Source: a virus. Taken from it: DNA of 26,473 nucleotides. The notes beneath the pieces are model-generated. The model made no database searches. It saw only the letters and a program-made list of their open reading frames with translations, and was not told where the DNA came from. The translations under genes and the position numbers were made by a program. This document shows, piece after piece, positions 1 through 25,044 of the stretch. Numbering within the stretch: the first letter of the stretch is position 1; every line of letters begins with the position of its first letter. Location: the IMG/VR virus record IMGVR_UViG_3300024256_000051, positions 1 to 26,473 of that record; one strand, 5' to 3'.

Positions 1-2548
1 TTTTTAAGTCTTTCATATTTGCAAAAGTTTTTTGTAATGCAGGTACGATAAGTGGATGTCCATCTTTACGATTTTGTCTTTTCCAATCATATCCTTTATA
101 TTTTGCTTCATTTACGGATTCATTGAATCTACGAGCCTCTTCCACCTCGACCCAATCAACTCCCTTAATTAAATCCTTTATAGATTTAAATTGTGGAGAA
201 CCAATCATTTTACCAGGCAGAGTATAAACAACTTTTCCTGATAAACTTTTACCTTTTTTAATTTTACCTTTTGATATTACTTGCCAAAAATTTCTATTAA
301 ATCCCTTTGGAACAAAAAATGAGATGATATTTCCAGTTCCCTGTATAATTTTTAGTTTCTGTGTATCTGAGATTTTGGTTAAAGGTGTTTTATCATCAAT
401 CCCATCTAACCCTTTAAATTGTCTTTCATTTACAACTGATTCACTCATACTCAAAATAGCTTTTTTCTTTTTAAGCATTAGTTTAAGGAACGCATCTACT
501 AACTTACCATTCTTATCATCAGTCATACGATGTGGTCTACCAACAAAATCTTGTCCGATACCGTTCAACTTACCTGAACGGTGGAACTCAATCGTTCCTT
601 TTGGAGATTTTACTGCAAAGTCACCCATACCTAAATGCACAAGTTCTGAATTTGGTAATACACCTTTACTATAGTTTACAAAGTTACTATCTACTATTGT
701 TTGATTTCCAACTCTTTCGTAGTGGCCTATATTCTTTCCTTCATTTACGGATTCATTACCAGTTCTTCCCATATATCTAACAAATTGTTTAGCACCTTCA
801 ATATATCCTAATAATTCTTTTTTATCAACCCCACTAAACATTCTATCTTTCATCACAATACTAAGAATAGCCTTTGAATTTTTATTTTTATTTTTCATTA
901 CTATGCCATGTAATACATCTGTTTGGTCTTTGTCTAAAATACCCATTCCACCTTCATTTACGGATTCTTTAAATGATGTTTTAAATTCCTGTGATATCTT
1001 TTTAAGTGATTGCATCAACTTAGGTTCTTTTTTAATATTTTTATCCCATATAGTAAGTTTACCATCTTCACTTATATGAGCTATATTTTTATAATCACCA
1101 CCTTGACTTTGATTTCTATCATATATGGTCATACCATTACCCTTAAAAGCAGCTCCAGTATCATACTTTCCAAACGCACCTTCATTTATAGGCATTTTTA
1201 ATTTATATTCCATAAAATTGGATTCGGATAATTTCTTTAATAATTTCTTTTGAAACTTCTTCTTTACATCCGGAGTCATGTCCACCCCACCACTCAGTAC
1301 ACCAGTTAATGTATCTAATGCCCTTTTCTTTCCTTGACTTTTAACCAAATCTTTAAATGCGTCCTTTATAGACACTTCTTTAAATTCATTTACGGATTCA
1401 TTTGCCCCTTTCATTAATTTTGATATCTTTATTAAAGTATCTCTGTCTTTCTTGGAAATAGATTTTAATTGTCTATCTTTAGCAATTTTATCTAATGTTT
1501 TACCATATTCTTTAGTTGATTCATTTACGGATTCTAATTTTTTAGTTCTATCATATTTTTTTATAAAATCTTTAAAGAATTTTTCTGCTTTATCGTGTTT
1601 ATTAACATTTCCTGGCATATCAATATATTTTGTTACTTCACCTTTTTTACCATGAAAGACAATATAATATTTGTTATTACCACTATAATAAGACATTTGA
1701 TTACCATCTGCAGTATAATCAGTTCTACCATAAACATCTTTTGAATTCTTTTTAACTTTCGTCAAAATACTTCCTGACAATCCTTCATTTACGGATTGTA
1801 ATTCTTCTCTAATTATTTTACGGAGTGTATTACGTGATACCGTTTCTTTTTTCAATCTACTCTTTGTTGCCCCATTTACGGATTCTTCAAAGTATCCCTT
1901 TTGTCTTAAATCTTCTTTACCCTTTTCAAGAGATTTTTTGTTTTTATGGATTTGCAGATCCCAAAAATCACTTCCGTCAGTATGTTTTGATTTACCGTTA
2001 TGGAAACTGATAACGTATTTAGCTCTACCTATATTATGTCCGATTCTAAATCTTTTTTGGCCTTCATTTACGGATTCTTTTTTCAATCTGCTCTTTTCGG
2101 CTCTACCTCGATTTTTTGATTCTGATTCAAATCCCACAATTTTTCCTCCCTTATGTGATGCATCTTTACCATCACCATTTCCATAAGTACCTTTCTTACG
2201 ATTGTACTTATTTAATTCAGCTCTATACTTTTTAGATTTAGTGGATGAACCATACTTTGCGTATTCTTTTTTGTAATCCCTCTCCGTTCCACGAGAATCT
2301 TTTTTCTTGGTTTCTTTTATATCACTTGTACCTGAAAGTTTATATCCCAAGACTTCGGCATTCTTTTTTCGTTGGTCATTCCACTCATCTGTGAATCCAC
2401 CATCGTATTTTTCAAGTTCTTCTCGTACCATATCACTAAGATAGGCTGATAATCTTGATTTATATTCGTCCACAGGTTCTTCCTTATGTTTTACCCAAAC
2501 TGGGTGTTCTTCACCACTATATGGTCAAGTGTGATGACCAGGTTTCAT
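1..2548 (-). CDS. Polyprotein-like modular protein with repeated ESVNE sites (3' end off window; in-frame TGA near start)
   Basis: One minus-strand frame stays open from 2524 to the window edge. It reads as about ten modules of 29-160 residues separated by the motif (N/K)ESVNE(G/A/S/F), encoded by a nearly invariant 15-base repeat. Variants are INEG near 1181-1193, SVVNER near 424-440 and ESVNGA at 1871-1885. The motif resembles the (L/I)-x-E site cut by T4 gp21-type prohead proteases, and such a protease is encoded 0.5 kb upstream, so I infer processing into separate peptides. Modules include a Lys/Arg-rich one (around 2110-2240) and one with an internal leader-like helix just before the site at 1784-1798. 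The ATG at 2548 overlaps the upstream stop (TAATG), but codon 8 is TGA (2525-2527). The next in-frame ATG is at 2431 and lacks a ribosome site. The true C-terminus is outside the window. Coding is certain from the long open frame and in-frame repeats; function is unproven. Confidence 0.8.
107..2077 (-). repeat. Dispersed 15-base in-frame repeat encoding ESVNE
   Basis: Copies of ttcatttacggattc (plus-strand reading) lie at 107-121, 740-754, 953-967, 1385-1399, 1520-1534, 1784-1798 (last base changed) and 2063-2077. Related copies are at 1871-1885 (NGA in place of NEG) and about 424-440 (SVVNE). All are in the same reading frame, coding ESVNE. Spacing is irregular (87-316 bases) and the intervening sequence codes for unrelated modules. 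This excludes a simple tandem repeat or CRISPR and suggests module shuffling through a shared linker. Confidence 0.9.
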
Positions 2549-2808
2549 TATCTAATATACTTTTTAAGTGATTTTACAAAATCGTTTTTTGCACCACCAC
2601 CAAACTCTGTTTTAATTAGAAATGCAACACCTCGTGCAACTTCATCTAAACTAACACTACCACCACCTTTTTTCTCGGCCTTTTTGAATCCACCCAATAC
2701 ACCTTTGTATACCCAAGTCCAAAGAGATTCATTTTCTTCGTTTAGTTTTTCATCAAGACGGAATTCTCTCCATTTCTTGTTCATTTCGTATATTTGTCTA
2801 TCTTTCAT
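2548..2808 (-). CDS. Small hypothetical protein of the prohead cluster
   Basis: An 86-residue basic protein of unknown function. Its first 24 residues form a charged helix ending KLNE followed by ENE, which could be a prohead-protease site (L-x-E), but the leader is not one of the two clear types seen elsewhere here. The remainder holds an aromatic patch (LWTWVY), a lysine/glycine stretch (KKAEKKGGG) and a basic C-terminus. Its stop overlaps the ATG of the modular polyprotein (TAATG), and it follows the next gene upstream with one base between them, so the genes are probably translationally coupled. No family recognised. Confidence 0.75.
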   Translation of the reverse strand: MKDRQIYEMNKKWREFRLDEKLNEENESLWTWVYKGVLGGFKKAEKKGGGSVSLDEVARGVAFLIKTEFGGGAKNDFVKSLKKYIR

Positions 2809-3051: not shown

Positions 3052-3666
3052 TTACTCTCCTCTAATAATGTCGTTAATAATTTCTTCTACTTTACAGTAT
3101 TTGTTACACGTTCTACCATCTTCTACTTTCTCTACTCCTTCTTTAAGTGGATATAAAAATGCACCGTGTGTGCTTGGATTACTGACAAAATCAAATGCAA
3201 TTAACTCAAAATCATCTCCTACTTGTTGACCATCACCCTCCTTTAGTGGTTCTACTGAACCCATACCTCTTGACGAAATACCTAATTTTATTCCTGCCTT
3301 AAATAATTCCGTTAGAATATTTCCTGATGGTGTCCCTAATACTTCTACTGTTCCTACTAAGTTTTTTCCTTCCCAATGCATTTCAGTAATATTGTGAGAT
3401 ACATTTTGTAAATTTACCACGGATGATTCTGGATGGTCTAATTCACCCATTGCTCGTTTTTGATTAATAAATCCTTCAGAATATTTCGTTGCTTCACGAG
3501 CTAATATCTTGCCTGGATAAACTCTACCATTCTGGTTTTTTGCATCTGCTCGCTGTAATACTCCATGCACTACGAGACGACCCTGATTAGTTTTTAGTGA
3601 TTCAGTTATTTGTTCCCGTGAAATTTCAAACGGGAGATAATCGACAATCAACTGCCTATTACTCAT
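3052..3666 (-). CDS. 21: Prohead core protein protease, T4 gp21-like
   Basis: This is the serine protease that matures the head by cutting scaffold and internal proteins at (L/I)-x-E in T4. At 204 residues it is close to T4 gp21 (about 212). The herpesvirus-assemblin/gp21-type active site is visible: His78 in GELDHPE, Ser131/Ser132 in KLGISSRGMG, then the conserved FELIAFDFVSNPS block (about 153-165). The N-terminal HGVLQRADAKNQNGRVYP block (34-51) is typical of the family. It is surrounded by genes whose products carry leaders ending in L/I/V-x-E, which makes it the obvious processing enzyme for the cassette. It overlaps the upstream gene at its start. Confidence 0.93.
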   Translation of the reverse strand: MSNRQLIVDYLPFEISREQITESLKTNQGRLVVHGVLQRADAKNQNGRVYPGKILAREATKYSEGFINQKRAMGELDHPESSVVNLQNVSHNITEMHWEGKNLVGTVEVLGTPSGNILTELFKAGIKLGISSRGMGSVEPLKEGDGQQVGDDFELIAFDFVSNPSTHGAFLYPLKEGVEKVEDGRTCNKYCKVEEIINDIIRGE

Positions 3667-3992
3667 TATATTCTCCTATTGATAATTCTATCATGTAATT
3701 CCGTGAAATTGTAACTTGATTTTTTTGATTCTGTAATTGATCTGTATTGTTTTCCGTTTACTGTGATTTCAGCACCATCGTCTACCTTAGCATCCTGTAC
3801 TTTTTGTCTTGTTGAATGAGATTTAGTGTAAGTTGGTTGGTCTGCTCTATCTAAATCATCCCACCAATCTTCTTCTAATTTATTTATTTGATGTCGTTTC
3901 ATTACATCTTCAAATGTAGGTAGTGGATCACCAAATTCCCTCTTTACAAAAAATCTCTCATAATTTTCTTGTAATATGTGTTTTTTTGTCAT
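3666..3992 (-). CDS. Small FGDPLP-module protein, predicted to release a peptide
   Basis: A 108-residue protein starting MTKKHILQE, a short leader ending L-Q-E. It continues with a module shared with two upstream genes (4002-4778 and 5883-6464): REFGDPLPTFEDVMKRHQ, then KLEE before DWWDD. Both flanks of the module are L-x-E, so cleavage would release a peptide of about 30 residues. The C-terminal part (TVNGKQYRSITE) matches the end of the 4002-4778 protein (MIDGKQFRRISE), so the two genes look like a diverged duplication with the middle lost. The GGAG ribosome site before the ATG is good. Function unknown; location next to the protease suggests a prohead core component. Confidence 0.8.
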   Translation of the reverse strand: MTKKHILQENYERFFVKREFGDPLPTFEDVMKRHQINKLEEDWWDDLDRADQPTYTKSHSTRQKVQDAKVDDGAEITVNGKQYRSITESKKSSYNFTELHDRIINRRI

Positions 3993-4001: not shown

Positions 4002-4778
4002 CTATCTCTTAAATCTTTTGTAAAACTCTGAAAATTCATATTTTGATTTTGGTTCTTTTTCCACTTCACTAATTCTACGAAACTGTTTTCCATCAATCAT
4101 AAGTGTTTCTTGGTTTAATTCATTACCAGTTCTGGGGGATTTGGCACCAACTACCTTCTCCATGCGTCCGAGTTCTCTCCTACTTTTTCTAAATTCTTCT
4201 CTATCATCATCAACAATTGATTGAATCCTTGATATTTCTTCTTCATCACCCGTTTCTTTTGCATCGTCCAACTCCCCCTTTGAAAAAGTAAGGTTTTCTT
4301 CGGCGGTATCATAATCATCTTCAATTTTTTCCTGATTAGCAGTATAATATGTTTTACGAGATGCAACGAATTCTTTTCTATCACCATCAACAATTGATTG
4401 AATCCTTGATATTTCTTCTTCATCGCCCATTGCTTTTGCATCGTCCAACTCCCCCTTTGAAAAAGTAAGGTTTTCTCCAGCAGTAGCATAATCATCTTTA
4501 ATTTTTTGTGGGTCTAATTTTTCTTCACCACTTGGTCCTTCACCACTCGGTTCTTCACCACCATCATCATCATCAGCTTGTTGTGCTTGTTTTGAACCTG
4601 GATGGGCTTTTATATATTGTGCCTGTGCTGATGCATCCATATCATCCCACCAATCTTCTTGTAATTTACTTTCTTGATGTTGTTTCATTACATCTTCAAG
4701 TGTTGGAAGTGGATCACCAAATTTTCTTTTTGTGAATCCAGGTGTACTTTCGTTTATTAATTTTTTTAATTTTATCAC
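4002..4778 (-). CDS. Leader-bearing FGDPLP protein with internal duplication
   Basis: A 258-residue acidic, highly charged protein. The leader MIKLKKLINE is of the short type, with predicted cleavage after residue 10. It is followed by STPGFTKRKFGDPLPTLEDV, then KLQE before DWWDD (second likely site). Residues about 70-90 are an acidic low-complexity linker (DDDDGGEEPSGEG). Two near-identical copies of a helical unit follow (ENLTFSKGELDDAK, then DEEEISRIQSIVD), offset by 59 residues. The C-terminus resembles the next gene downstream. Acidic, coiled and proteolysed fits a scaffold or core protein, or a source of internal peptides as T4 gp22 and gp67 are, but it is not a recognisable gp22. Confidence 0.82.
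   Translation of the reverse strand: MIKLKKLINESTPGFTKRKFGDPLPTLEDVMKQHQESKLQEDWWDDMDASAQAQYIKAHPGSKQAQQADDDDGGEEPSGEGPSGEEKLDPQKIKDDYATAGENLTFSKGELDDAKAMGDEEEISRIQSIVDGDRKEFVASRKTYYTANQEKIEDDYDTAEENLTFSKGELDDAKETGDEEEISRIQSIVDDDREEFRKSRRELGRMEKVVGAKSPRTGNELNQETLMIDGKQFRRISEVEKEPKSKYEFSEFYKRFKR
4196..4500 (-). repeat. Direct tandem duplication (unit about 177 bp) inside the 4002-4778 gene
   Basis: The segment starting at 4211 (caacaattgattgaatcctt) recurs starting at 4388, an offset of 177 bases (59 codons). Each copy continues for about 110-120 nearly identical bases and encodes the same helical unit. Being a multiple of three it preserves the frame. The high nucleotide identity points to a recent duplication. 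Confidence 0.85.
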
Positions 4779-4779: not shown

Positions 4780-5160
4780 TTACTTCTCCGTTTTCATAAA
4801 ATCATATTCTTGATTTTTAAAAATTTGTTCAAATTCATCTACATAATCTTTTGCTAACATAATTCTTTGTCTCTTTGGAAATATGTCTCTATCGTTTCCA
4901 CCGAACTCTTTAACATACTTCTTAGCTCCATCATTGACAAGATATACAAATCCTTTCATGGCTAATGATGAATTATACTTTCCCTTTTGTTTCTTTTTAG
5001 ATAAATTCTTTAATATTGGAATATATGTACCATTATATAAACGAGAATCATTATCAATGTAGAGTTTTAATTCTTCCATTTCACCAGAAAGACTGCGTTC
5101 AGTTAATAGTTGAATTTCTTCTTTGATTATTTCTCTTAATTGTGTTTTGGTTATTTTCAT
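4780..5160 (-). CDS. Small leader-bearing protein, predicted capsid-targeted
   Basis: A 126-residue protein beginning with the long leader MKITKTQLREIIKEE then IQLLTE, with predicted cleavage after Glu21 (L-T-E before R). The mature part of about 105 residues is basic and mixed alpha/beta, with YIDNDSRLYNGTYIPILKNL and a lysine cluster KKKQKGKY; it has no cysteines or obvious catalytic motif. I do not recognise the family. The leader is the same, also at DNA level, as those at 5689, 20626, 20909 and 22166. Confidence 0.82.
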   Translation of the reverse strand: MKITKTQLREIIKEEIQLLTERSLSGEMEELKLYIDNDSRLYNGTYIPILKNLSKKKQKGKYNSSLAMKGFVYLVNDGAKKYVKEFGGNDRDIFPKRQRIMLAKDYVDEFEQIFKNQEYDFMKTEK

Positions 5161-5171: not shown

Positions 5172-5450
5172 CTATATACCATCGACATTAAATTTTATAC
5201 CACTTCCTTTTAGGGCTTTATAAATTTTATCGGCTACACTTTTATCAATATAACCACTAAAATCAAAAAAAGTTGAAGTTTTTTCATATTTAACATTTGG
5301 AAACTGTTTCTTTAATAGTGATGATATTTTTATACTTTGTATAGAATTTTTAGCATCAATAGCAAAATTTGAATTATTTTCTATAAGATAAATTTCTTCT
5401 CTAATTATTTCTTTTAATTGTGCTTTAGTTAATTCCAATAATGTCTTCAT
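5172..5450 (-). CDS. Small leader-bearing protein, predicted capsid-targeted
   Basis: A 92-residue protein whose leader is a lengthened long-type: MKTLLELTKAQLKEIIREE then IYLIE before NN (L-I-E, predicted cut about residue 24). The mature part contains a pattern resembling a small alpha/beta domain (SIKISSLLKKQFPNVKYEKT, then ADKIYKALKGSGIKFNVDG). It overlaps the upstream gene by four bases (ATGA). Function unknown. Confidence 0.8.
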   Translation of the reverse strand: MKTLLELTKAQLKEIIREEIYLIENNSNFAIDAKNSIQSIKISSLLKKQFPNVKYEKTSTFFDFSGYIDKSVADKIYKALKGSGIKFNVDGI

Positions 5451-5689
5451 TTCATTTTCCCTATTATTTTAGTCAGCCGAGATATCATATCCAACATCCC
5501 AGGTACAGATCTATAGTATTTTTCAGCCCATCCTTCTACTTTACCTTTATATTTAGTTGCATTGAAAATCTCATTTCTCAACGTATTCAACCCATCAACT
5601 AACATCTTAGGTGCATCATCGGGATCTATATAAGCTTCAGTTACTTCTTCTTTGATTATTTGTCTTAATTGTGTTTTAGTTATTTTCAT
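5447..5689 (-). CDS. Small leader-bearing protein, predicted capsid-targeted
   Basis: An 80-residue protein starting with the long leader MKITKTQLRQIIKEEVTE, predicted cut after Glu18 (V-T-E before AY). The mature part of about 62 residues is a short helical domain (DDAPKMLVDGLNTLRNEIFN, then YYRSVPGMLDMISRLTKIIG). No family is recognised. The start overlaps the stop of the upstream small gene and has a GGGGA-like ribosome site just upstream. Confidence 0.8.
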   Translation of the reverse strand: MKITKTQLRQIIKEEVTEAYIDPDDAPKMLVDGLNTLRNEIFNATKYKGKVEGWAEKYYRSVPGMLDMISRLTKIIGKMK

Positions 5690-5882: not shown

Positions 5883-6464
5883 TTAATACAGTTTCCCAAT
5901 TTTATTGGATAATTTCACCAATTTTTCACTAATCTTGCCCATGGCTTTGTGAGTGTTTTTCCAGTAGCTTCTGGAATCAATGGACAGCTCGGTTTTTAGT
6001 TTGACATTCATCTTAACTAACTTATCTAACTCATTTAGTTTATCACGGACTTCTCTCATTGACTGACCAATTTTTTGTTTAGCACTCATCGATTCATCAT
6101 TTCTGTAATCATGATACTTTCCCTCTCTTACTTTTGATTTGTGATTTTTCATGATACCAGCTAAAGTTGGAAGTGGATCACCGAATTTCCTGTTGGTAAA
6201 TCCTGGAGTTTTTGATTCGTTTATAGACTCTTTTCTCAATTTTGGGTTCTTTGTGACATATAAACCAGTTCCACGAGTTGGTTCTTCGTGACCTTTCGTG
6301 TATCCAGCCTTTCCTTTTTTAGTACCCTTTTTATTACTACCACTGAAAGCGTGTGGTGTATTATAACTACCACCTACACTTGCAGTTGAATTTGCCTCAT
6401 CTAATTCTTGTTTAATAAGTTCACGGACGAGTTTTCGTATTAGACTTTCCCTATTTAACGACAT
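5883..6464 (-). CDS. Leader-bearing FGDPLP-module protein
   Basis: The ATG at 6464 is chosen because GGAG lies 9 bases upstream; a TTG at 6479 in the same frame would swallow that site. From this start the product is 193 residues: MSLNRESLIRKLVRELIKQE then LDE before ANS, a long-type leader with cut at about residue 23. Next is a Gly/Lys/Thr-rich disordered stretch (about 25-75), a second site in KESINE before SKTPGF, then the FGDPLPTL module shared with 3666-3992 and 4002-4778, ending KVRE before GKY. The C-terminal 80 residues are a coiled helical region. It overlaps the upstream gene by 14 bases. A multi-peptide precursor is likely; the peptides' role is unknown. Confidence 0.8.
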   Translation of the reverse strand: MSLNRESLIRKLVRELIKQELDEANSTASVGGSYNTPHAFSGSNKKGTKKGKAGYTKGHEEPTRGTGLYVTKNPKLRKESINESKTPGFTNRKFGDPLPTLAGIMKNHKSKVREGKYHDYRNDESMSAKQKIGQSMREVRDKLNELDKLVKMNVKLKTELSIDSRSYWKNTHKAMGKISEKLVKLSNKIGKLY

Positions 6465-7317
6465 TTCTAAGTTCTCCAATAAGTGAATAATATCTCATTA
6501 GTGATACAACCTGCTTATCTCTAACAATTTTACCTTTTGTTAGAGTATCAGCTTGTGCTATAGATTCTTTTAACTTAATTTTAGTAATTTTATCAGTAAT
6601 CTTTGGTAGTGATTTAGTCAAAATCTCTTTTACCTTTTTAACTTCACCGTTGATAAATTCTCTTAATGAATTTGTATTAGAAATGTTATTTACATATTCT
6701 TTTAATAGATTTCGTTGCATTGAATTAAGAGTTTTATATTTACCATTAAAATTATCCACCATTAACTGATAAGACAACAATCGTAAATCTGTATCTTCTT
6801 TTTTGAATTTAGCAAGAGTTTTATTGTCTGTATTTCTCGGTTTTGTTTTATTTCGTGTGATGTGTTCCATTATAGTAAATGTACTATTTACTTCATCTGC
6901 TGGATCAAATACCGGAGTAGTTTCTGCAAGAAATGACTTATATATTGAAGCATATACCTTGTAATTAGGTATTCTCACATTAAAAAAATCTTCTACTTTA
7001 TAATTTTCTTTAATTTTCTTAATTAAATTATATTTTTCAGTTCGTAATTTTTTGTTCTGTAGTTTTTCCCTTGACTTTAAAACTACTTCAAGTAATTTTT
7101 CAGCTTTCCGTGGTGAATTATAATTTTCCTTTAATAAAACTTGATAGAGTTGATTCTCTTTACCTAACTCCGTTCCCTCATTGAAAAATTTCTTTAAAAT
7201 TTCAACTGATTTGCTTTTCGCATTATCATTCATCACGTCTACTGTGATCTGACGAGATAGTAATTCGAAAAGTATCCCAGTATTCTTAATTTTACTATGA
7301 CGTACTCTTTGACTCAT
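6451..7317 (-). CDS. Hypothetical protein downstream of portal
   Basis: A 288-residue, lysine-rich, helical protein starting MSQRVRHSKIKNTGILFELL with a clean GGAGTTAAATT ribosome site. It has no leader, signal peptide or recognisable catalytic motif. A C-terminal helix (ESIAQADTLTKGKIVRDKQV) and the position between portal and protease suggest a structural or assembly role in the head. It is preceded by one of the few real intergenic gaps (7318-7374), which holds a promoter-like motif, so it may start a transcription unit covering the small leader genes and the protease. Family not identified. Confidence 0.8.
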   Translation of the reverse strand: MSQRVRHSKIKNTGILFELLSRQITVDVMNDNAKSKSVEILKKFFNEGTELGKENQLYQVLLKENYNSPRKAEKLLEVVLKSREKLQNKKLRTEKYNLIKKIKENYKVEDFFNVRIPNYKVYASIYKSFLAETTPVFDPADEVNSTFTIMEHITRNKTKPRNTDNKTLAKFKKEDTDLRLLSYQLMVDNFNGKYKTLNSMQRNLLKEYVNNISNTNSLREFINGEVKKVKEILTKSLPKITDKITKIKLKESIAQADTLTKGKIVRDKQVVSLMRYYSLIGELRNVVK

Positions 7318-7374: not shown

Positions 7375-9234
7375 TCAATCATTTATTTCGTTACTTAACG
7401 ATGATGATAATTCATTTTTATATTCTTCTTCTACATCACTAGCTTCAAATAAAATCTTCCTATCTTCTTTACCAATTTTACCTAAACTTTTCTTTAATGT
7501 ATCGTAGTGTGCTAATGCGAGTCCATATTTCGGACTACCACTACTTGCCTTTCTTTTATCATGTGACCCTAATGGATCACGACCTCTGATACTCGAATCT
7601 TTACCATATTTTGGACCTTCTTTTGGACGACCACTTCCTGGCCAACCGTCGTCTGGCATTTCCATATCTAATTCTTTTCCGGTTCTCCCAAATGGACTAC
7701 CACCACCTTGTTGATCTTGACCTGCCATAGCACCTTGAGTTCCAACTGCTTCCTCACTTTGAACTGGGTCATTTCCCTCTTGTTCTATCTGATCCCATCT
7801 GAATTTACGTTTTTGGTCTTTAATAATACCGAGTCTAACATTCTTCTTCTCTTCTTCTGTAAACTTGAAAATGTTATTGTAAATCCATTCTGTATCTGCT
7901 ATTTTGGAGTCCATCATACTTGACGCAAGACTTTGTTTGTTGTTCCATAACTCTATCTTTTCTTCTTCGTATATTGTGGATGGGTTTGTAAGTTTCAATT
8001 CAAAATTGACTAGGTCAGCGTCAGTATAACCTTGTGCATATAAATGAACGATACCAATTTTAGTTAATTCACTTGTTACTATTCGTTGGAGTCGTTCTAT
8101 TGTTCTTGCGAAACGAACATCTTCGGCTGCAAGAGTAGCTTTTCCACTTACGTTTTCATCATAACCAAGAAATGGTTTTGGGATTTTTAATGCTGCTAGG
8201 AGTTTATTTCTCAAATACTCTATATCGTCCACAGCTTCGTATGTAAGACCACTTAAAGTTTCTATTGACGTTCCACTATCGCCACCACGAACAGGGATAA
8301 AAAAGTCCTCTGTAAGATTTTGGATGTTGTATTTTAAATTGTAATCACCAGTTGCTGTATCCATAACTGGAGCTTTCTTCATTTTATTTGTAACTTTTTG
8401 CATGAAGTTATCAACTTCTGCAGGTGGGATGTTTCCAATGTCAAATTTGAAAATTCTCTTTTCTGGTGCTCTCATAATACGATGGATTAACATAGCGTCT
8501 TCCATAAGTGAAAGTTGTTTCCAGATTTTACGACCACCTTCAATCATACTTTTACCATAAGGTAGGAAATTTGAATCTGATAGTAATCTGAAATGTGCCA
8601 TTTCATAATTTTCCAATTCTTTGTTGCCATTCATATTTGAACTATGTCTCGCGTCACCGTGCTCCACTACGAACTGTGTCATGTATGGATTATCTGGATC
8701 TTCACCCTCTATACGAGTAACATCATACGCTGAAAGTGGTACTACATTTGTAATGCCATATTTTTCCTTAATATCCAAATAAAGATAGAAGTCACCGTAT
8801 TTGCACATATTACGAACCCATGGCCAGAGATTGAATTCTATATTCAAAACATCGTAATATAAATTATGTAATATATCATGAATATTTTCATTTTCAGATC
8901 TAATTTCTAACACTTTACCATATTCGGATCGTAACGTACTTTCATCAGCATAAATATCCAATGCACTTGACAGGATTGCGTCATTATCCATTTCTTCATA
9001 ATCTTTGAATAATCCAAGACGTTGTGCTTGGAAACTAATTGCTTGAGCGTGTCCATATCCACCAGTTGTTAAATTGGTGTGTATTCTGGACCATCTGTCC
9101 ACAAGACTGTTTCTTGTAGCGTTCTGAACTTGGTTTGTATCAGCAATTTTTAACTTTTTACCACCAGTGTGTCTAACGATCGCATTTGTGCTGAATAATC
9201 GGCGGAGACGGCTCCGTAAACTTTTATCTGCCAT
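7375..9234 (-). CDS. 20: Portal vertex protein, T4 gp20-like
   Basis: A 619-residue protein that forms the dodecameric DNA channel at the head vertex and the site where terminase docks. Family features seen: the N-terminal segment with RWSRIHTNLTTGGYGHAQAI (about 47-66), the EMDNDAILSSALDIYADEST block (about 81-100), the WPWVRNMCKYGDFYLYLDI block, the long helical clip/stem region (MEDAMLIHRIMRAPEKRIFK), and GYDENVSGKATLA near 350-365. The C-terminal 120 residues are Gly/Pro/Asp-rich and probably disordered. The start is fixed by AGGAGT ten bases upstream, inside the end of the homing endonuclease gene, which overlaps it by 11 bases. The stop is TGA, showing that TGA is a normal stop in this genome. 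Confidence 0.93.
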   Translation of the reverse strand: MADKSLRSRLRRLFSTNAIVRHTGGKKLKIADTNQVQNATRNSLVDRWSRIHTNLTTGGYGHAQAISFQAQRLGLFKDYEEMDNDAILSSALDIYADESTLRSEYGKVLEIRSENENIHDILHNLYYDVLNIEFNLWPWVRNMCKYGDFYLYLDIKEKYGITNVVPLSAYDVTRIEGEDPDNPYMTQFVVEHGDARHSSNMNGNKELENYEMAHFRLLSDSNFLPYGKSMIEGGRKIWKQLSLMEDAMLIHRIMRAPEKRIFKFDIGNIPPAEVDNFMQKVTNKMKKAPVMDTATGDYNLKYNIQNLTEDFFIPVRGGDSGTSIETLSGLTYEAVDDIEYLRNKLLAALKIPKPFLGYDENVSGKATLAAEDVRFARTIERLQRIVTSELTKIGIVHLYAQGYTDADLVNFELKLTNPSTIYEEEKIELWNNKQSLASSMMDSKIADTEWIYNNIFKFTEEEKKNVRLGIIKDQKRKFRWDQIEQEGNDPVQSEEAVGTQGAMAGQDQQGGGSPFGRTGKELDMEMPDDGWPGSGRPKEGPKYGKDSSIRGRDPLGSHDKRKASSGSPKYGLALAHYDTLKKSLGKIGKEDRKILFEASDVEEEYKNELSSSLSNEIND

Positions 9235-10015
9235 AACTTATATTACTCCTATTTAATTTAATTCGTATAACATCATATCCTAAACTTTCAAGATATGTTT
9301 GTCGTTTTATATCCTTCTTTCTTAATTCACCATTCTTAAAATGATGACTTTCATCAACTTCTATAATTGTTTTTCTATTTTCATCTAATCCATCTGGATA
9401 ATATCCACCTATTCTTACTTCACCACCATTTTCTGCGTGTTGGAAGTTGTAGCCGTTTTCTTTTCCGTAGTTTTCTATTATTTTACAGGCGTCTGGGTTG
9501 TAGTTTGGTATCAATTGACCTCCATTTAATTCAGTTCGTTCAATTCTTCTTATGGCAGATATTCTTTGTTTTTTCTTTGTTTTTTCTGTATGAATGTTTC
9601 CAGTATTTGCAATACTTAATTTTTTTCTTGTTTCGTTACTCACTTCATGACCCATTCTTAATTTACTAAATTCTGGACGTTTCTTTCCATAAAATGGATT
9701 ATTTTTTCCAGACATTGATATACTTATATTTTTTATATGATCTTCAGATAAAATTCTACCTTTCTGTGAGCAACTCCTACACAAACTTTCATTTTTGATT
9801 GCTAAGTCTCGTCTATATTTGGTAGTATGTAAAACTTCCACAATACATTTTGGACAAAATCTCTCATATTTTTTTTCATTTAAAATTTTCATTTTTCCAA
9901 TGTGAGAACACGAATTGCAATTAGAATTTATTTTATTTGAATAAGTATATCCAGACGTACTTGTATAAGTTAATTTTTTATTACAAGTTGGACAATTTCT
10001 TTTATATTCTGCCAT
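9224..10015 (-). CDS. Free-standing EDxHD (Vsr-like) homing endonuclease
   Basis: A 263-residue protein between terminase and portal. The N-terminal half has two zinc-binding clusters (CPTC/CNSC at about 8-37, CPKC/CRSC at about 54-82), then a NUMOD3-type DNA-binding segment (ISMSGKNNPFYGKKRPEFSK) and its repeat. The C-terminal 70 residues show the Vsr-like nuclease of the EDxHD family: IIEVDESHHF, then KKDIKRQTYLESLGYDVIRI. This family was described from phage fractured genes and introns, where it makes a strand break in a conserved gene and copies itself in. Terminase-portal neighbours are conserved targets. It is not inside an intron or intein that I can see, and it overlaps the portal start by 11 bases. 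Confidence 0.88.
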   Translation of the reverse strand: MAEYKRNCPTCNKKLTYTSTSGYTYSNKINSNCNSCSHIGKMKILNEKKYERFCPKCIVEVLHTTKYRRDLAIKNESLCRSCSQKGRILSEDHIKNISISMSGKNNPFYGKKRPEFSKLRMGHEVSNETRKKLSIANTGNIHTEKTKKKQRISAIRRIERTELNGGQLIPNYNPDACKIIENYGKENGYNFQHAENGGEVRIGGYYPDGLDENRKTIIEVDESHHFKNGELRKKDIKRQTYLESLGYDVIRIKLNRSNISYGR

Positions 10016-10027: not shown

Positions 10028-11605
10028 TTATTTTATTAACCATGTTAAATTTTCTTTTTCTCCAGCAACTTCCATTTCCCAAGAATCATTTCTATTATCC
10101 ATTGGTTGGTAAACTGCTTCGTAATCTAATGTTCTACTTAATACATCTTTCTGTAATGCTATTCCTTCTGATTTTAATCTTAATGCTGTATCTCTAACCC
10201 ACATACCTATTGCAAGACTGATTGAAAGATCATCATTATATCCTTCCATTGCCTGTGCCTTAAAATTGTGGTAAATAAATACAAACAATTCTTCTATCAA
10301 TCTAGATGAATGAACTATTACAGTTTTTTCTCTAAAATACTCTTCTAATTTTGCTATTACTAATGGTCGTGTTTTCATGGTCATACTGAAACCCGGGACC
10401 ATCTTTTGATCCATATTTCTATATTTATTTGATATTTGACGCTGAACATCCACGTAGTGTAAATCCTTACTCGTATAAAACAAATTATCATAATCTCTGT
10501 CTATAACTTGCTGTATTGCTGCCCAACCTATTGATGCATTTTCAATAACGAGTAACGCGTTGTTATATTCTACTGCAGTATTCATACATAAATTACCAAA
10601 ATCTTTTGTGGATATTTTTCCTTTATATTCCGCTACTTGTTCCATTTTCTGTACATCTATTACGTGGAATGCTGAAAAGTCATTACCATCACCACGGGCA
10701 ACGTCAGCACTCAATACATAATCTTGTGTGTAATCTGGTGGTCTCCATATCCATAAATTACTATCAAATCCCCTTTTTTCCATTGGTTCTTCAATGTGGG
10801 TATTTTTATATTCTTCAAGTATAACACCATCAATTACAGTTTGACCAGATGTGATGAATGAGCAATCACATTCTTGTGCTGCCATTGAAGGACCTAATAG
10901 TTTATCTTGGTCATCTCTCCAATCTTGTTCCCTATCTGGGTGTACTGTCCAATGGAGTTTAATGAAATTCCAATCATTTTTCCCTTCTTCAGCTCCAGCC
11001 CATGTTTTATGAAACCAATTTCCTACTCCATTGGGTGTGCTTAATGCAATACATTGACCACCAGTAGATAAGGTACTTTGTGCCGCTGTCCATATTGCAT
11101 CAATTTTTGGAATAAATGAGGCTTCATCGAGTATCAATAATGATAATGCTTCTGATCTACCACTATCTTCACCACTGGAAATTGCCTTTACTTGTGAACC
11201 ATTTGAATATTTTAAAGATAATTTATTATCCTCCGTACAACTGGATTTTACCCAATTTGGAAGATTAGCATGCATAACTCGTATTTTTGTTACGAGATTT
11301 TTTGCTGTATCCTGTTTGGTAGCAATAACCAATATATTCTTGTCTGTTTGAAAGGTCATCATCCATAATGAATAACCAGCTACGAGAGTGGATATTCCTA
11401 ACTGACGAGCTTTGAGAATAATATTATAATTGTGCTTATTAAAATCTTCTAATGTTTTTTCTTGGAAATCATATAAGGAAAATGGAATTTTACCGTCTAT
11501 TGGATGTTGAATGACAGCATACTTTTTTAGAAAGTATATTGGGTCTTTAGCACACTTTATGTATTCGGCTTTTATTATTTCTTTTATGTTTTGGCTATTA
11601 CTCAT
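10028..11605 (-). CDS. 17: Terminase large subunit, T4 gp17-like
   Basis: The DNA-packaging motor and headful nuclease, 525 residues. The ATPase half has the family's Walker A variant KARQLGIST (about 65-73), the Walker B LLILDEASFI (about 155-165) and the coupling motif LSTPNGVGN. The RNase-H-like nuclease half shows SADVARGDGNDFSAF (first acidic cluster), LVIENASIGW and the final YNDDLSISLAIG. The length is a little shorter than T4 gp17 (610), as usual in marine relatives. The ATG abuts the upstream stop with no spacer. No small terminase (gp16) is recognisable nearby, though one of the unknown genes upstream could be it. Confidence 0.95.
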   Translation of the reverse strand: MSNSQNIKEIIKAEYIKCAKDPIYFLKKYAVIQHPIDGKIPFSLYDFQEKTLEDFNKHNYNIILKARQLGISTLVAGYSLWMMTFQTDKNILVIATKQDTAKNLVTKIRVMHANLPNWVKSSCTEDNKLSLKYSNGSQVKAISSGEDSGRSEALSLLILDEASFIPKIDAIWTAAQSTLSTGGQCIALSTPNGVGNWFHKTWAGAEEGKNDWNFIKLHWTVHPDREQDWRDDQDKLLGPSMAAQECDCSFITSGQTVIDGVILEEYKNTHIEEPMEKRGFDSNLWIWRPPDYTQDYVLSADVARGDGNDFSAFHVIDVQKMEQVAEYKGKISTKDFGNLCMNTAVEYNNALLVIENASIGWAAIQQVIDRDYDNLFYTSKDLHYVDVQRQISNKYRNMDQKMVPGFSMTMKTRPLVIAKLEEYFREKTVIVHSSRLIEELFVFIYHNFKAQAMEGYNDDLSISLAIGMWVRDTALRLKSEGIALQKDVLSRTLDYEAVYQPMDNRNDSWEMEVAGEKENLTWLIK

Positions 11606-12596: not shown

Positions 12597-12904
12597 TATT
12601 CCATCTCCATTATTTTTTTATAAGTAGACTTACCTTCTAACTTCTTAGTTTTTGACGGTTCATCAAATTCACTATCCATTGGTTCTTTATATTTACCATA
12701 TCCTTCACTATCACGTTTTATGTCCTCAGTAAAACCTTTGTCGAAAATATTTACAGTTTTAAAAAGTCTAAATTTAAGTGCTGGGCGATCATTTATCAAT
12801 AAATCCCCCTTTTCATTCCATTTAATAGATTTAATTACTACTGGCTTATTCTTAAATTTACCCATTTTTACAGTGTCGCCTTTTTTAATCGGTAATTCAA
12901 TCAT
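12596..12904 (-). CDS. Small hypothetical protein, rebuilt or paralogous N-terminus next to homing gene
   Basis: A 102-residue basic protein. The N-terminal part looks like a small KOW/SH3-like beta barrel: IKKGDTVKMGKFKNKPVVIK then SIKWNEKGDLLINDRP. The short ORF at 13694-13777, on the far side of the homing endonuclease, has a related start (VGDVIKTGKFKN). The gene therefore appears to have been interrupted by the GIY-YIG gene, with the N-terminus supplied again on this side. The ATG overlaps the endonuclease stop (ATGA). The C-terminal half is charged and probably disordered. Function unknown. Confidence 0.75.
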   Translation of the reverse strand: MIELPIKKGDTVKMGKFKNKPVVIKSIKWNEKGDLLINDRPALKFRLFKTVNIFDKGFTEDIKRDSEGYGKYKEPMDSEFDEPSKTKKLEGKSTYKKIMEME

Positions 12905-13692
12905 TTTTTGCTCCTACAATTATTGAAATGATATCGTTTCATATTAGTTACTCCTCCAGTTTTATCACAGTTAGGACAAGTATCTATTTTTTGTTTATGT
13001 ATCCGTCCACAATTTTCAAAATGATATCGATGCATCAAATTTATTCCACCAACTACACCACATGATGGGCATTCAACTCTTGAAAATTTCATACCTGTTC
13101 TGCCAATGCTCATATTTCGACATCGTTCTTTAGATAATGGTATGCCCATTAACGCATCACTAATACTTTTACGATGAGATTCTGTTAATTTTTTTTCAGT
13201 AAGACCTTTGCTAATATTATTACAATGTTCTTCAGATTTAGTTACTCCAAACATTGTCTTACTAATATTTTTACGATGTTCATCAGATAAATTTCTACCC
13301 AGCAAGCCTTTACTAATATTCATAGAATGTTCTTTAGAACGAATTCTTCCTTTTAATGATTTGCTTTTTTTCTTATTTGATTCTTCCGAAAAAATATGAT
13401 TAAATCCACCAGTAGTCATATTATATCCGGTTCCCTCATCCATAAAAGTATTATATTCTTTAATATAATATGATTCCATTTTATTTAACTCATCCATAGA
13501 ATTACACTCACATATAATACCCCACTTAAAATTTTCTATGCCATATTTACGAAGTGCATTATGAAAATAAAAATTTGAATTTCCATTAAATGCGCTCTGG
13601 CAATGACCTTTTTTTCTATCTTCCAATGTCTTAATCGTCTGACCAATATAAGATTTATCATTTATTTCATTGTGTGCTCGATAAATAATCAT
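12901..13692 (-). CDS. GIY-YIG homing endonuclease with NUMOD3 repeats
   Basis: A 263-residue free-standing endonuclease. The N-terminal GIY-YIG nuclease is clear: IIYRAHN (the GIY strand), SYIGQT (YIG), LEDRKKGH (catalytic Arg) and the downstream MESYYIKEYNTF with its Glu. The middle (about 105-205) is a tandem series of five or six NUMOD3-like DNA-binding segments (SDEHRKNISKTMFG, SEEHCNNISKGL, TESHRKSISDALMG, SKERCRNMSIG). The C-terminus has two matching C2HC zinc fingers, each CPxC, GG, RYHFxNC. This is a selfish gene that cuts a recipient site and copies itself there. Its flanks (13694-13777 and 12596-12904) encode similar peptides, marking the likely insertion point. Confidence 0.92.
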   Translation of the reverse strand: MIIYRAHNEINDKSYIGQTIKTLEDRKKGHCQSAFNGNSNFYFHNALRKYGIENFKWGIICECNSMDELNKMESYYIKEYNTFMDEGTGYNMTTGGFNHIFSEESNKKKSKSLKGRIRSKEHSMNISKGLLGRNLSDEHRKNISKTMFGVTKSEEHCNNISKGLTEKKLTESHRKSISDALMGIPLSKERCRNMSIGRTGMKFSRVECPSCGVVGGINLMHRYHFENCGRIHKQKIDTCPNCDKTGGVTNMKRYHFNNCRSKK

Positions 13693-20389: not shown

Positions 20390-20626
20390 TTATTTTATAT
20401 CCCAAGTTTTAATAGATTTTAAAACATAAGTAAGCGTTCCAACCTCATAATTAAATGCCTTTGCTAATTTATCATTTTTAAGATGTAAAATCATTGAGTA
20501 TTTCTTAAATGTTTCTATTGAAGATTTAAGTGTTTTTACTATAGCCATTTTATTTCCAGCACCTGCATATTCATTCAAAAGTTCTTCTCTGATGAGTTCT
20601 CTTAGTTGTGTTTTAGTTATTTTCAT
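20390..20626 (-). CDS. Small leader-bearing protein, predicted capsid-targeted
   Basis: A 78-residue protein starting with the archetypal long leader MKITKTQLRELIREELLNE, predicted cut after Glu19 before YAGAG. The mature peptide of about 59 residues is helical (MAIVKTLKSSIETFKKYSMI, then LAKAFNYEVGTLTYVLKSIK). The ribosome site GGAG is eight bases upstream. No family known. Confidence 0.8.
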   Translation of the reverse strand: MKITKTQLRELIREELLNEYAGAGNKMAIVKTLKSSIETFKKYSMILHLKNDKLAKAFNYEVGTLTYVLKSIKTWDIK

Positions 20627-20913: not shown

Positions 20914-21195
20914 CTATCCTCCAAACCTACTGTTTTTCCACATCAACTTCTGCAATCTTTCATACTCACGTTGTTGTTCTGGTGATATTTTAATTGTTTT
21001 CAATGGCCCAAATATTCTTTGTTTTCTACTGTTTTGTTTATAAACATCATCCATCTTCTTTTCATCTTTATCTACTGCAATTACTTTTTTAAGGTTGCTA
21101 CTTACCACTATCCAATATCCAGCCTTTCTCATTTCTTGTGCCTTGTCAATAGTAATGTCTACTTTTTCGTTTAGTAAATCTATTAGTTTAATCAT
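20914..21195 (-). CDS. Small leader-bearing protein, predicted capsid-targeted
   Basis: A 93-residue protein with the short leader MIKLIDLLNE, predicted cut after residue 10 before KVDITID. The mature part has a pattern of short strands and helices (KAQEMRKAGYWIVVSSNLKK, then VIAVDKDEKKMDDVY) and a basic C-terminal helix (EQQREYERLQKLMWKNSRFG). The start overlaps the stop of the ADP-ribosyltransferase-like gene by four bases (ATGA type). No family recognised. Confidence 0.8.
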   Translation of the reverse strand: MIKLIDLLNEKVDITIDKAQEMRKAGYWIVVSSNLKKVIAVDKDEKKMDDVYKQNSRKQRIFGPLKTIKISPEQQREYERLQKLMWKNSRFGG

Positions 21196-21749
21196 TTTAT
21201 ACCCATCAACTCTAATTCTTTTTCCCAGAATAATCCGTATACGGCTAATGCATTGACTTTAACTAACACATTCATTGTGTTTCCAACGTGAAATACTTCT
21301 TGTTCATTTCTTTTTAATCCAACTTCTTTTCCAATCTTACCTAACCACTTATAATTACCAACAAAATTATTATCTATTTTAGTAATAATAATTGATTCTG
21401 GATAATCGGGCTTAGCATTATATTTAGCAAACTTTTGAGCTAAATCAAAATTATATGTAAATGATTGTACTGGTCGTCTTGACCTATACTTCATTTTTAA
21501 AAACAACCATTTGTCATCTCGTTTAGCTATTTTTAGTTTTTTTAAATCTTTTTTAGATATAGCCGTTCCTCTATACACTTCACCACTAATCGGGTTTAAT
21601 TCTTTTGAGTATTTAGATTTTTTTGAATACAAAGATTTAATAGTAGAATCTATTTTAGTAGTTCTTTCACCGCCAGCTTTCATATACTTTTTTAACATTT
21701 CTATTTCAGTATCTAAGTTTTCTGTCAATAAATATTTTAGTTTGATCAT
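21192..21749 (-). CDS. Leader-bearing ADP-ribosyltransferase-like protein (R-S-E type)
   Basis: A 185-residue protein. The leader MIKLKYLLTE is predicted to be cut after residue 10. The C-terminal 130 residues show the arginine-specific ADP-ribosyltransferase pattern: Arg60 in SGEVYRGTAI, the serine motif in RPVQSFTYNFDLAQKFA (Ser96-x-Thr98), and Glu149-x-Glu151 in RNEQEVFHVG, followed by a strand (NVLVKVNAL). Such toxins move ADP-ribose from NAD to a target protein, often on arginine. T4 Alt is an ADP-ribosyltransferase packaged in the head through its own leader and injected to modify host RNA polymerase, and this gene looks like a small functional parallel. Overall similarity to Alt is not visible; the assignment rests on motif order and spacing. 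Confidence 0.7.
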   Translation of the reverse strand: MIKLKYLLTENLDTEIEMLKKYMKAGGERTTKIDSTIKSLYSKKSKYSKELNPISGEVYRGTAISKKDLKKLKIAKRDDKWLFLKMKYRSRRPVQSFTYNFDLAQKFAKYNAKPDYPESIIITKIDNNFVGNYKWLGKIGKEVGLKRNEQEVFHVGNTMNVLVKVNALAVYGLFWEKELELMGIK

Positions 21750-21896: not shown

Positions 21897-22166
21897 TTAC
21901 CCCTTTAATAATTCGTGATATAATTTGTCAAGCATAATTTTGGTAAAAGCGTCATATTCACTTAATGCACTTTTAATCAATTTATTTGAAGCACTCGAAT
22001 ATTCTTTTGATTTGGATTTAGCGAACTTTTTTAATTCCTTACCAAAATCTTCAGCTTTATTTCCAATAGCCAAATACTCATCGTCATCATGTGGATGATA
22101 ATAATCATTCTCATTCAAGAGCTCTTCCCGAATCATTTCTTTTAATTGTGTTTTAGATATTTTCAC
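21897..22166 (-). CDS. Small leader-bearing protein, predicted capsid-targeted
   Basis: An 89-residue protein with GTG start at 22166, two bases beyond the upstream stop codon. The long leader MKISKTQLKEMIREELLNE is predicted to be cut after Glu19 before NDYYH. The mature peptide starts with a His/Asp-rich stretch (YYHPHDDDEY), which could bind metal, followed by helices (EDFGKELKKFAKSKSKEYSS, then KLIKSALSEYDAFTKIMLDK). The ribosome site is GGAG, within the end of the upstream gene. Function unknown. Confidence 0.8.
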   Translation of the reverse strand: MKISKTQLKEMIREELLNENDYYHPHDDDEYLAIGNKAEDFGKELKKFAKSKSKEYSSASNKLIKSALSEYDAFTKIMLDKLYHELLKG

Positions 22167-22167: not shown

Positions 22168-22770
22168 TCATTTCTCCAATGAATTTACAATGTTCATAAT
22201 GCCCTTATTTCGTTTTTGGGCTCCATTATGTGTGGATAATCCCTTTTTACCTGCAAAATTCTTTTCCAATGACTTGACTATTTTTGGGTATGCTATTCCA
22301 CCACCACTTTCGGCCCATTTTCTACTTCCCCTTTCTATTAATTTAGAGGCTTTATTTAATTTCATCGTCATTATCTTGGAAGTCTTTTCATGCCAAAATT
22401 TAACTTCATTATCTTCAATTTGTAATATGACTATTTTACTAATACCATTTAACTCAATCCAATATACAGTTAAGGGGGCAATATACATTGATTCATTTAA
22501 TGTATTTTCTTTAACTAAAATTTTTGATATATACGTTGAAATTCTGAATTTAGTTCCGGCTACAGGGACCAAACCCTTATCTTTAACTTTCTGTGTAATA
22601 TCATATTTACCATTTCCCAATTCTTTAATGAACCAATCACTTTTACCGACTCTACCTTTCCATATTTGTTTTTCTATCATATGTTTAATGGCTCGCTTGT
22701 CGGTAGCGGTAAGGTGTCCGTCTAATACTTTTATCTTTATTTCATTGAGTAGGTCTTTGAGTTTAATCAT
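22168..22770 (-). CDS. Leader-bearing protein with two cleavable modules
   Basis: A 200-residue protein. The leader MIKLKDLLNE is predicted to be cut after residue 10. A first module (about 11-94) is followed by a second site, ENTLNE before SMYIAP (L-N-E), so processing would give two peptides of about 85 and 105 residues. Module 1 contains a beta-rich stretch (GKYDITQKVKDKGLVPVAGT), and module 2 begins with hydrophobic strands (APLTVYWIELNGISKIVILQ) and ends with a basic tail (GAQKRNKGIMNIVNSLEK). No known family. It is part of the leader-bearing run. Confidence 0.8.
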   Translation of the reverse strand: MIKLKDLLNEIKIKVLDGHLTATDKRAIKHMIEKQIWKGRVGKSDWFIKELGNGKYDITQKVKDKGLVPVAGTKFRISTYISKILVKENTLNESMYIAPLTVYWIELNGISKIVILQIEDNEVKFWHEKTSKIMTMKLNKASKLIERGSRKWAESGGGIAYPKIVKSLEKNFAGKKGLSTHNGAQKRNKGIMNIVNSLEK

Positions 22771-22782: not shown

Positions 22783-23691
22783 TTAAAAGTAGGCGTCACC
22801 ACCTCTATCTGAAATCCATTTGTTGATGTCTTTGGGTTCATTTGTTATTTCTATTTTATTGCCAAACATCTTTTTAGCTTTTTCTATTTCTTTTCTTTTT
22901 TGTTTACCTTCAGTTGAATTATAGTCATCTTCAAATACTTCGTCGTCATAGTAATACATATCTTCTATATACCCCAATACATCCACTACCATAATTTTGT
23001 CAACCACTAATTCGTTCCACCACCAATCACCTGTAAATGGGTGTGGTTCTCCGAAATGTTTATTTAATTGTTTTTGATGTGTCTTTATTACTTTGACAAC
23101 ACCCTTCTCATATAAATTGAATACTTTTTTCACTCCCCTTTTATCTAACGTATTTCCATCTTTATCTTCTAAGTGACTAAACAGGCCGTGTACATTTCTT
23201 TTATATTTTAACTTTAACTTGCGTATAATGTCATCAAAAATAAAAGTCATCTTTCCTTTTATTTTATCACCTATTTTACTATCTGATGCTTTATTTAATA
23301 AATAAGTCAATGACGATGAAAATTGTGGTTCAGTTGATACCCACCTCATTCCAGTTTCATCTGGTCGAGACATTATATCATCGGAAGAAGCTATTTTCAA
23401 TTTACCTATCATATGGACAAGAAACCCACCATCGGTTCTAATTCCACTTAGATTTCCTATATTACTTTGAGAAGTTGTAGTAAATGTTGAAAGTGCCTTT
23501 GATGTACCTTGAAGTTTTTTTAGATTTACCAATCCTTTAAAATCCGTTACATGAAATGTTGGAATATCTACATCACCTACAATTACATCTACCACTTTTT
23601 TTGATAATGGAATCATAGTAGAATCCATCATATTTAGTTGAGAGTCTTCCCAAGATATTACTTCATATAATAAATCTTTTAATTTAATCAT
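22783..23691 (-). CDS. Leader-bearing protein, possible ADP-ribosyltransferase-like fold
   Basis: A 302-residue protein with leader MIKLKDLLYE, predicted cut after residue 10. The middle shows PTFHVTDFKGLVNLKKLQGT, then ALSTFTTTSQSN, and later WWWNELVVDKIMVVDVLG. A His at a strand end, a Ser-Thr-Phe strand and an Asn-Glu-Leu-Val-Val strand in that order recall the H/R-S-E layout of the ADP-ribosyl-/RNA 2'-phosphotransferase fold, but spacing is long and the match weak. The region about 240-290 is acidic then basic (DDEVFEDDYNSTEGKQKRKE). Its ATG is 3 bases from the upstream stop. The leader marks it as predicted head cargo. Confidence 0.75.
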   Translation of the reverse strand: MIKLKDLLYEVISWEDSQLNMMDSTMIPLSKKVVDVIVGDVDIPTFHVTDFKGLVNLKKLQGTSKALSTFTTTSQSNIGNLSGIRTDGGFLVHMIGKLKIASSDDIMSRPDETGMRWVSTEPQFSSSLTYLLNKASDSKIGDKIKGKMTFIFDDIIRKLKLKYKRNVHGLFSHLEDKDGNTLDKRGVKKVFNLYEKGVVKVIKTHQKQLNKHFGEPHPFTGDWWWNELVVDKIMVVDVLGYIEDMYYYDDEVFEDDYNSTEGKQKRKEIEKAKKMFGNKIEITNEPKDINKWISDRGGDAYF

Positions 23692-24791: not shown

Positions 24792-25044
24792 ATTCTCCGT
24801 GATTTTTAATAAATCTAATATTTTGTTTTTCTGACCAAAATATTTCTTTATTTTTTAATAGTGATTTTATATTTACCATTGATATATGACAATAATCACC
24901 ATCCCATTTTTTACGTGAATTAACATAGCTACAGTAACGTCTATTATTAAATTTAAAATTACACCTATCACATTTATATGATATACTTTGACCTGTATGT
25001 GGGTTTCCTGTTTTAGTATAAATTAAATCAGTTGCTAATAACAT
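24778..25044 (-). CDS. Small zinc-finger ORF between the split-intein halves
   Basis: An 88-residue ORF that overlaps both intein halves (10 bases at its start, 14 at its end). It contains a treble-clef-like cysteine pattern: SYKCDRCNFKF, then RRYCSYV and DGDYCHI, followed by a basic helix (VNIKSLLKNKEIFWSEKQNI). In the fractured-gene arrangement known from marine phages, the space between split-intein halves holds a homing endonuclease of the EDxHD type. This ORF has no complete nuclease motif, so I read it as the zinc-finger/DNA-binding part of a decayed endonuclease or a small DNA-binding protein. Confidence 0.65.
   Translation of the reverse strand: MLLATDLIYTKTGNPHTGQSISYKCDRCNFKFNNRRYCSYVNSRKKWDGDYCHISMVNIKSLLKNKEIFWSEKQNIRFIKNHGEYGEN

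Follow-up and report, generated by a model that had tools for sequence, protein, structure and literature searches.

A phage head-block gene encoding a chain of reshuffled modules with protease-site-like linkers, a probable polyprotein source of head cargo

Results

The stretch of DNA analysed here, called the window throughout, is a virus record of 26,473 bases (IMG/VR record IMGVR_UViG_3300024256_000051, positions 1 to 26,473) and belongs to a T4-like bacterial virus of marine origin. Its minus strand carries a T4-type head block with the large terminase, the portal protein and an S77 prohead protease (Table 1); by terminase and protease, the nearest isolates are Microcystis phage Mel-JY01 and the Flavobacterium phages immuto, with 48-55% protein identity. 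Downstream of the protease, with two small genes between, lies the subject of this report: a long gene, referred to below as the polyprotein gene, in which a short recurring linker, ESVNE, separates a series of modules. The frame is on the minus strand, is open from 2524 and runs past base 2, a length of at least 824 codons, and the protein is therefore truncated here. The GTG at 2473 is the likely start codon, since GTG, ATG or TTG stands at that codon in 15/15 distinct relatives.

Table 1. Coordinates of the polyprotein gene, its modules and the associated features of the window
Feature	Position	Strand	Evidence
Modular polyprotein, likely start GTG 2473, off window end, at least 824 codons	2..2473	-	start position in 15 relatives
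N-terminal piece (VDEYKSRLSAYLSDMVREELEKYDG...SDIKE), putative targeting segment, I-K-E site at end	2312..2473	-	conserved first piece in L022, L025, L026
Module 1, phrog_6437 family, ESVNE linker 2063-2077 at end	2063..2311	-	
Module 2, degenerate ESVNG (1871-1885), CTS relic RNTLRKIIREELQSVNE; QSVNE 1784-1798 at end	1784..2062	-	
Module 3 (GLSGSILTK...), ESVNE 1520-1534 at end	1520..1783	-	
Module 4 (STKEYGKTLD...), ESVNE 1385-1399 at end; 96% identical in second L002 ORF	1385..1519	-	
Module 5 (FKEVSIKDAF...KMPINE), possible extra site KLSE/S at 1223; INE 1181-1189 at end	1181..1384	-	
Module 6 (GAFGKYDTG...), ESVNE 953-967 at end	953..1180	-	
Module 7 = A2 (GGMGILDKDQ...), three-helix domain in model, ESVNE 740-754 at end	740..952	-	
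Module 8 = A1 (GKNIGHYERVG...), alpha/beta domain in model, VVNE 425-436 at end	425..739	-	
Module 9 (RQFKGLDGID...), ESVNE 107-121 at end	107..424	-	
Module 10 = A4 (AKYKGYDWKR...), truncated by window end	2..106	-	
Prohead protease, Peptidase_S77 (T4 gp21 family), presumed cutter	3052..3666	-	Pfam 1e-25, phrog_207 8e-52
Portal protein, gp20 type, head context	7375..9234	-	phrog_213 1.3e-62
Large terminase, gp17 type, head context	10028..11605	-	phrog_2 1.1e-50
Structured RNA leader: two hairpins, weaker third over Shine-Dalgarno and start codon; micro-ORF	2462..2557	-	

The ESVNE linkers are encoded by six identical copies of one 15-mer, GAATCCGTAAATGAA (plus-strand form TTCATTTACGGATTC), all in this single minus-strand frame at the positions given in Table 1. 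Near copies encode QSVNE (one mismatch) and ESVNG (two mismatches), and there are further sites at INE, within PINE, and at VVNE. With up to three mismatches allowed, the window holds 8 linker copies, against a mean of 1.9 and a maximum of 6 in shuffled sequences. A preliminary description of this DNA, drawn from its letters and open reading frames (ORFs), had reported a frame of more than 800 codons near a protease, in which about ten near-identical ESVNE motifs, conserved at the DNA level, separated modules of 29 to about 160 residues. The frame, the neighbouring protease and the conserved DNA word are all present, and with six identical in-frame copies and four variants the repeat itself is real; the ten sites can be counted, but only six of them are identical, and ESVNG has no glutamate at the cleavage position P1. 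The module sizes were overstretched at both ends: usable sites are spaced 45 to 106 residues apart, with an N-terminal piece of 54.

A protein search of viral contigs yielded 27 loci related to the window, and four single-module searches added many more (loci carry L numbers below); the non-redundant set comprises 49 polyproteins, each with two or more canonical linkers, 27,849 residues in total. Because the loci were picked via modules of this window, the frequencies given here are not population estimates. Most of the polyproteins lie beside T4-type head genes, and the S77 protease is in the same locus in 39/48 related ones. The chains hold a median of six and up to eleven modules, mostly 36 to 180 residues long, and 91% of the modules are net positive. 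The same modules occur in other orders, with ESVNE, ESINE, ESVVNE, ESTVNE, ESVKE and similar linkers between them, and also singly, behind N-termini resembling a capsid-targeting sequence (CTS). Neighbours differ in 37 of the 42 module families present in at least two polyproteins, a count that is approximate because the families come from single-linkage clustering. Purifying selection acts on the modules, with a median ratio of nonsynonymous to synonymous rates (dN/dS) of 0.11 for A1, 0.30 for A2 and 0.064 for A3.

Database matches say little about what the modules do. Pfam found DUF3008 in 7 of the 49 polyproteins and otherwise single weak hits, with no peptidase domain in any of them, and the PHROGs matches of the modules were only to families without function. 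A fold search with the two modelled modules, A2 and A1, returned one nameless viral hit at E<1e-3 and none in the PDB, and a search for A2 in contigs of bacterial and archaeal genomes gave no match. Among the phage isolate records searched, none spans most of the polyprotein, and only the phrog_6437 module was matched. Two isolate genes were seen by other routes. A standalone gene beside the protease of Mel-JY01 (L036, 8705-9169; PP395634.1) is, by eye, homologous to a module found within the polyproteins of L006 (3662-6148), L009 and L011. In Flavobacterium phage immuto (L035, 7579-8661; MW353175.1) an unannotated protein of 360 residues with six [VIL]xE[GAS] sites, where 1.3 are expected (p=0.0015), precedes the protease, and is possibly, to judge by these sites, a small polyprotein in a culturable phage.

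The linker has the properties of a protease site. T4-family proteases cut after glutamate within a short motif (PMC9026906, PMC5694885), and the preliminary description had proposed that ESVNE fits a gp21-type site. Several observations bear this out: (i) [VIL]xE is kept where ESVNE is replaced. For A1 and A2, [VIL]-x-E stands directly before the module in 38/38 distinct contexts, polyprotein linkers and standalone genes alike. Leaving aside the phrog_6437 module, there are 144 contexts without a canonical linker; exact [VIL]xE lies at the boundary in 82/144 (1.4% by chance) and within three residues of it in 115/144 (9.1% by chance), and the middle residue (P2) varies freely. (ii) The residue after the site, P1', is G, A or S in 131/201. 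(iii) Standalone genes have a short CTS-like N-terminus that ends in the same kind of site, as in MKITKTQLKQMIREEIQSLKE/GGMGIL (L063), MKLTKSKLKQIIREEIKKLNE/GGIGKF (L136) and MKHLNEFLNE/AKDVGHY (L087), where the slash marks the boundary. (iv) The capsid proteins of the relatives have [VI]xE/[AS] at the gp23 cleavage position, placed by homology; in T4 it is LTE/A. (v) The interiors of the modules avoid the motif, with 63 [VIL]xE against 106 of the mirror motif Ex[VIL], whereas the other proteins of the loci have 1570 against 1468 (p=2.7e-4; p=1.3e-6 without the hits followed by G, A or S, many of which are evident extra junctions). (vi) In an AlphaFold2 model of A2-linker-A1, two domains are folded and all three linkers have pLDDT <50, so that the linkers are predicted to be disordered.

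At the DNA level the linker is a uniform word. The same 15-mer encodes 83 of the 125 ESVNE in the 49 polyproteins. At 86/86 distinct occurrences it lies within a long ORF in the frame that reads ESVNE, and at its edges information content drops sharply. The linker serine codon is TCC in 70%, against a background of 12%, and the DNA is thus more uniform than the protein requires, which would fit the role of a recombination word.

Homology between the polyproteins tends to break off at the linkers. Breakpoints fall near [VI]NE in 96/383 cases, against 31 +- 6 when the sites are rotated, with a maximum of 50 in 2000 rotations. Individual comparisons place the break to the base: (i) L005 aligns with the window on both sides of a gap, left of linker 953-967 and right of linker 740-754; the 213 bp that it lacks are exactly one module (Module 7, A2) and one linker copy. 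(ii) L019 and L021 have 99-100% DNA identity to the window beginning at the first base of linker 107-121 (base 121) and not before; in L019 the core proteins terminase, portal and protease show 61-74% identity. (iii) L002, whose core proteins are 99-100% identical, is nearly identical through Module 3 and diverges directly after linker 1520-1534. (iv) L080 shares 352 bp at 98.9% DNA identity (747-396), beginning at a site, with core proteins 51-62% identical. These base-exact breaks, together with the occurrence of modules in other orders and singly in the relatives, agree with the earlier proposal that modules are swapped through the shared linker, and with the comparison of module order suggested there to check it. 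The chain of L002 also contains the start of a CTS gene, together with its ribosome-binding site, as an in-frame fusion; in L019 this DNA stands at the beginning of a gene, which shows how such chains may grow.

Discussion

The modules and their linkers, the reshuffling with breakpoints exactly at linkers, the conservation of [VIL]xE and the adjoining protease can all be read directly from these genomes. We consider it very probable that the gene encodes a capsid-targeted head-cargo polyprotein, which a gp21-like protease would cut into small basic proteins and whose cassettes would be exchanged via the linker. The gene would be translated as one chain, which would enter the prohead core by way of a targeting segment, N-terminal, internal and CTS-like, or both. 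The neighbouring gp21-type S77 protease would cut after the glutamate of the [VIL]-x-E linkers, mostly ESVNE, and the products, some eleven small and mostly basic proteins, would be retained in the head, from which they would probably pass into the host along with the DNA, like the T4 internal proteins. That cleavage takes place at the linkers, and that the pieces are in the head and the virion, is what we infer from this arrangement. A module with its linker would constitute a cassette, and homologous recombination over the 15 bp linker would insert, remove or replace modules in frame, and the payload lists would therefore differ between phages. One extension of this reading, a cassette system in the head, seems to us reasonably likely, though less so than the reading itself. 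The 15 bp word may be both the protease site that frees the payloads and the crossover point for their in-frame gain, loss and reordering, and in this way lineages whose core head genes are only 50-60% identical would trade near-identical payloads cassette by cassette, and so reconfigure the injected set. By analogy with the T-even internal proteins, it is a natural guess that the modules are anti-defence proteins.

Some points weigh against the cargo polyprotein. The N-terminus in the window, VDEYKSRLSAYLSDMVREELEKYDG, does not clearly match any of the CTS types found on other genes, so that the targeting of this particular chain is putative. CTS-like N-termini are present on standalone homologues and on the polyproteins of L006, L009 and L019; that of the window polyprotein is suggestive only. 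The ESVNG linker is without the P1 glutamate, [VIL]xE occurs in a few places in the interior of modules (HISE/D is an example), the ORF in the window is truncated, and the contigs come from uncultured viruses. The breakpoint and depletion statistics ignore shared ancestry. Furthermore, since the linker DNA is over-uniform, its conservation may in part reflect recombination history and not cleavage.

This last point is what would be expected if the chain were an uncut multidomain protein, in which ESVNE is just a flexible spacer or a remnant of recombination between fused genes. The fusion of an entire CTS gene start, ribosome-binding site included, in L002 would suit such an origin. A spacer, however, need not retain [VIL] at P3 and E at P1 while the rest changes, nor match the ends of standalone CTS segments or the capsid cleavage site, and there would be no reason for modules to avoid the motif internally; we therefore regard an uncut protein as improbable. 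We see the same slight chance for a core or scaffold protein of the gp22/gp67/gp68 type, whose fragments would be cut to exit the head and have no function afterwards. The gene does lie in the head block and adjoins the protease, and the T4-like scaffold genes of the isolates are likewise rich in [VIL]xE sites, but the place of a gp22-type scaffold, before the major capsid gene, is taken in L029 by a separate acidic scaffold-like ORF directly before the capsid gene, and two isolates have similar ORFs there, while the modules are predominantly basic. They are, moreover, conserved domains under purifying selection, their interiors avoid the motif, and they move as whole units and also occur as genes of their own. 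Least credible of all, and very remote in our estimate, is that the reshuffling arose by metagenome misassembly at the 15 bp repeat. Several contigs end near a linker (L003, for instance), yet assemblers normally use k-mers longer than 15 bp, the same neighbourhoods recur in several contigs (L019, L020 and L027; L011-L013), the same behaviour is seen at junctions with differently spelled linkers, and modules that are 10-40% diverged occur in different orders.

Among known systems, the T4 internal proteins (IPI, IPII, IPIII and Alt, with a CTS cut by gp21) share several parts with the cargo polyprotein, which would work like a set of them combined with polyprotein processing. Common to both are small and diverse proteins, a phage-encoded S77 protease, standalone genes with a short CTS-like N-terminus, a hydrophobic-x-Glu site at the predicted mature N-terminus, and a content that varies between related phages. 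The T-even internal proteins have been described as defence proteins that are diverse apart from a common CTS (PMC3012670), and in IPIII the ten N-terminal residues are enough for head targeting (PMC9026906, PMC5694885). In T4, however, each gene has one CTS and one cargo, whereas here one chain holds many modules, every two neighbours are separated by a site, and the order of the cassettes is reshuffled. The T4 core proteins gp22, gp67 and gp68 offer a precedent for the multi-site cutting of one head protein by the same protease family; their fragments mostly leave the head, while those here look folded, selected and individually mobile, and a separate scaffold-like gene is present.

Nearest as an idea are the polyvalent proteins of phages and conjugative elements. 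Likened by their authors to RNA-virus polyproteins, they also place many domains on one polypeptide that is delivered together with DNA (PMC5512222). They combine enzyme domains of known kinds and presumably rely on a metallopeptidase embedded in the chain; the Pfam search of the 49 polyproteins did not bring up this combination of enzymatic or conflict domains and embedded peptidase, and here the cutter is presumably the separately encoded prohead protease, and the recurring linker is uniform and short. In the giant phages phiKZ and SPN3US many head proteins are cut after Glu by gp21 relatives, but the available parts of the reports (PMC9026906, PMC5694885) describe multiple sites in propeptides, and do not describe several cargo proteins freed from one chain. 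The logic of an RNA-virus polyprotein, one chain from which a virus protease releases several functional proteins, would fit the sequences described here.

The S77 protease, the CTS and the hydrophobic-x-Glu sites are known; what appears to be new is their arrangement. We found no description of a many-cargo chain reshuffled at its cleavage linker in the open-access full-text literature, to which the search was confined, subscription literature lying outside it. If our reading is correct, tailed phages can load many head proteins from one gene by polyprotein processing in the style of RNA viruses, and the payload evolves by cassette swapping at the cleavage site. Cutting the chains at [VIL]xE would then yield a catalogue of injected phage proteins, with the modules, almost all of whose families are currently unknown, as candidate early-acting or anti-defence proteins. 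It would also explain why unrelated small proteins of these phages begin with the same few residues.

Additional features of the locus

The start of the polyprotein gene is preceded by a structured RNA leader (Table 1), conserved in L005 (7842ff), L096, L108, L113 and L126, for which there was no Rfam match. Hairpins 1 and 2 show compensatory pair changes, from CAC/GTG to CAT/ATG and, in L026, UAUCAU/AUGAUA. The micro-ORF in the leader has 6-7 codons and ends in a TGA that is invariant in 15/15 distinct sequences. The leader looks like an element for translational control of the polyprotein. On either side of the in-frame TGA, codon differences are mostly confined to third positions, and translation ahead of the start, as a leader peptide or by TGA readthrough, was considered; it was rejected as the principal explanation because TGA ends 8/39 genes of the window and because the changes preserve the pairing of the two hairpins.

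Other genes of the window may also encode head cargo. Two recurring N-termini, MKITKTQLREMIREE.. or MIKLKDLLNE.., open about half of the 39 genes, with unrelated proteins behind them (examples are at 4780-5160, 5447-5689, 20390-20626, 21897-22166, 22168-22770 and 22783-23691), and much of the region may therefore encode CTS-bearing head cargo. The protein encoded at 21192-21749, which has a CTS-like start and no Pfam hit, resembles ADP-ribosyltransferases by eye (compare T4 Alt), as does that at 9430-10596 of L036 (Mel-JY01). A P-loop kinase-like gene on the minus strand at 24015-25406 (weak hits to AAA_33 and zeta-toxin) has the CTS-like start MIKLKDLIQLNEG; its P-loop is interrupted by an intein, with the N and C halves in separate ORFs, both with Intein_splicing hits, and a small ORF between them, the arrangement of a fractured or split intein.

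Within the head block itself, two probable free-standing homing endonuclease genes stand among the head genes, at 12901-13692 and 9224-10015; both candidates are zinc-finger and repeat-rich, and the former has, by eye, a GIY-YIG-like start. A module, KRKFGDPLPTLEDVMK, is common to three head-block genes (3666-3992, 4002-4778 and 5883-6479), and 4192-4507 contains a tandem duplication of 177 bases with 93% identity.
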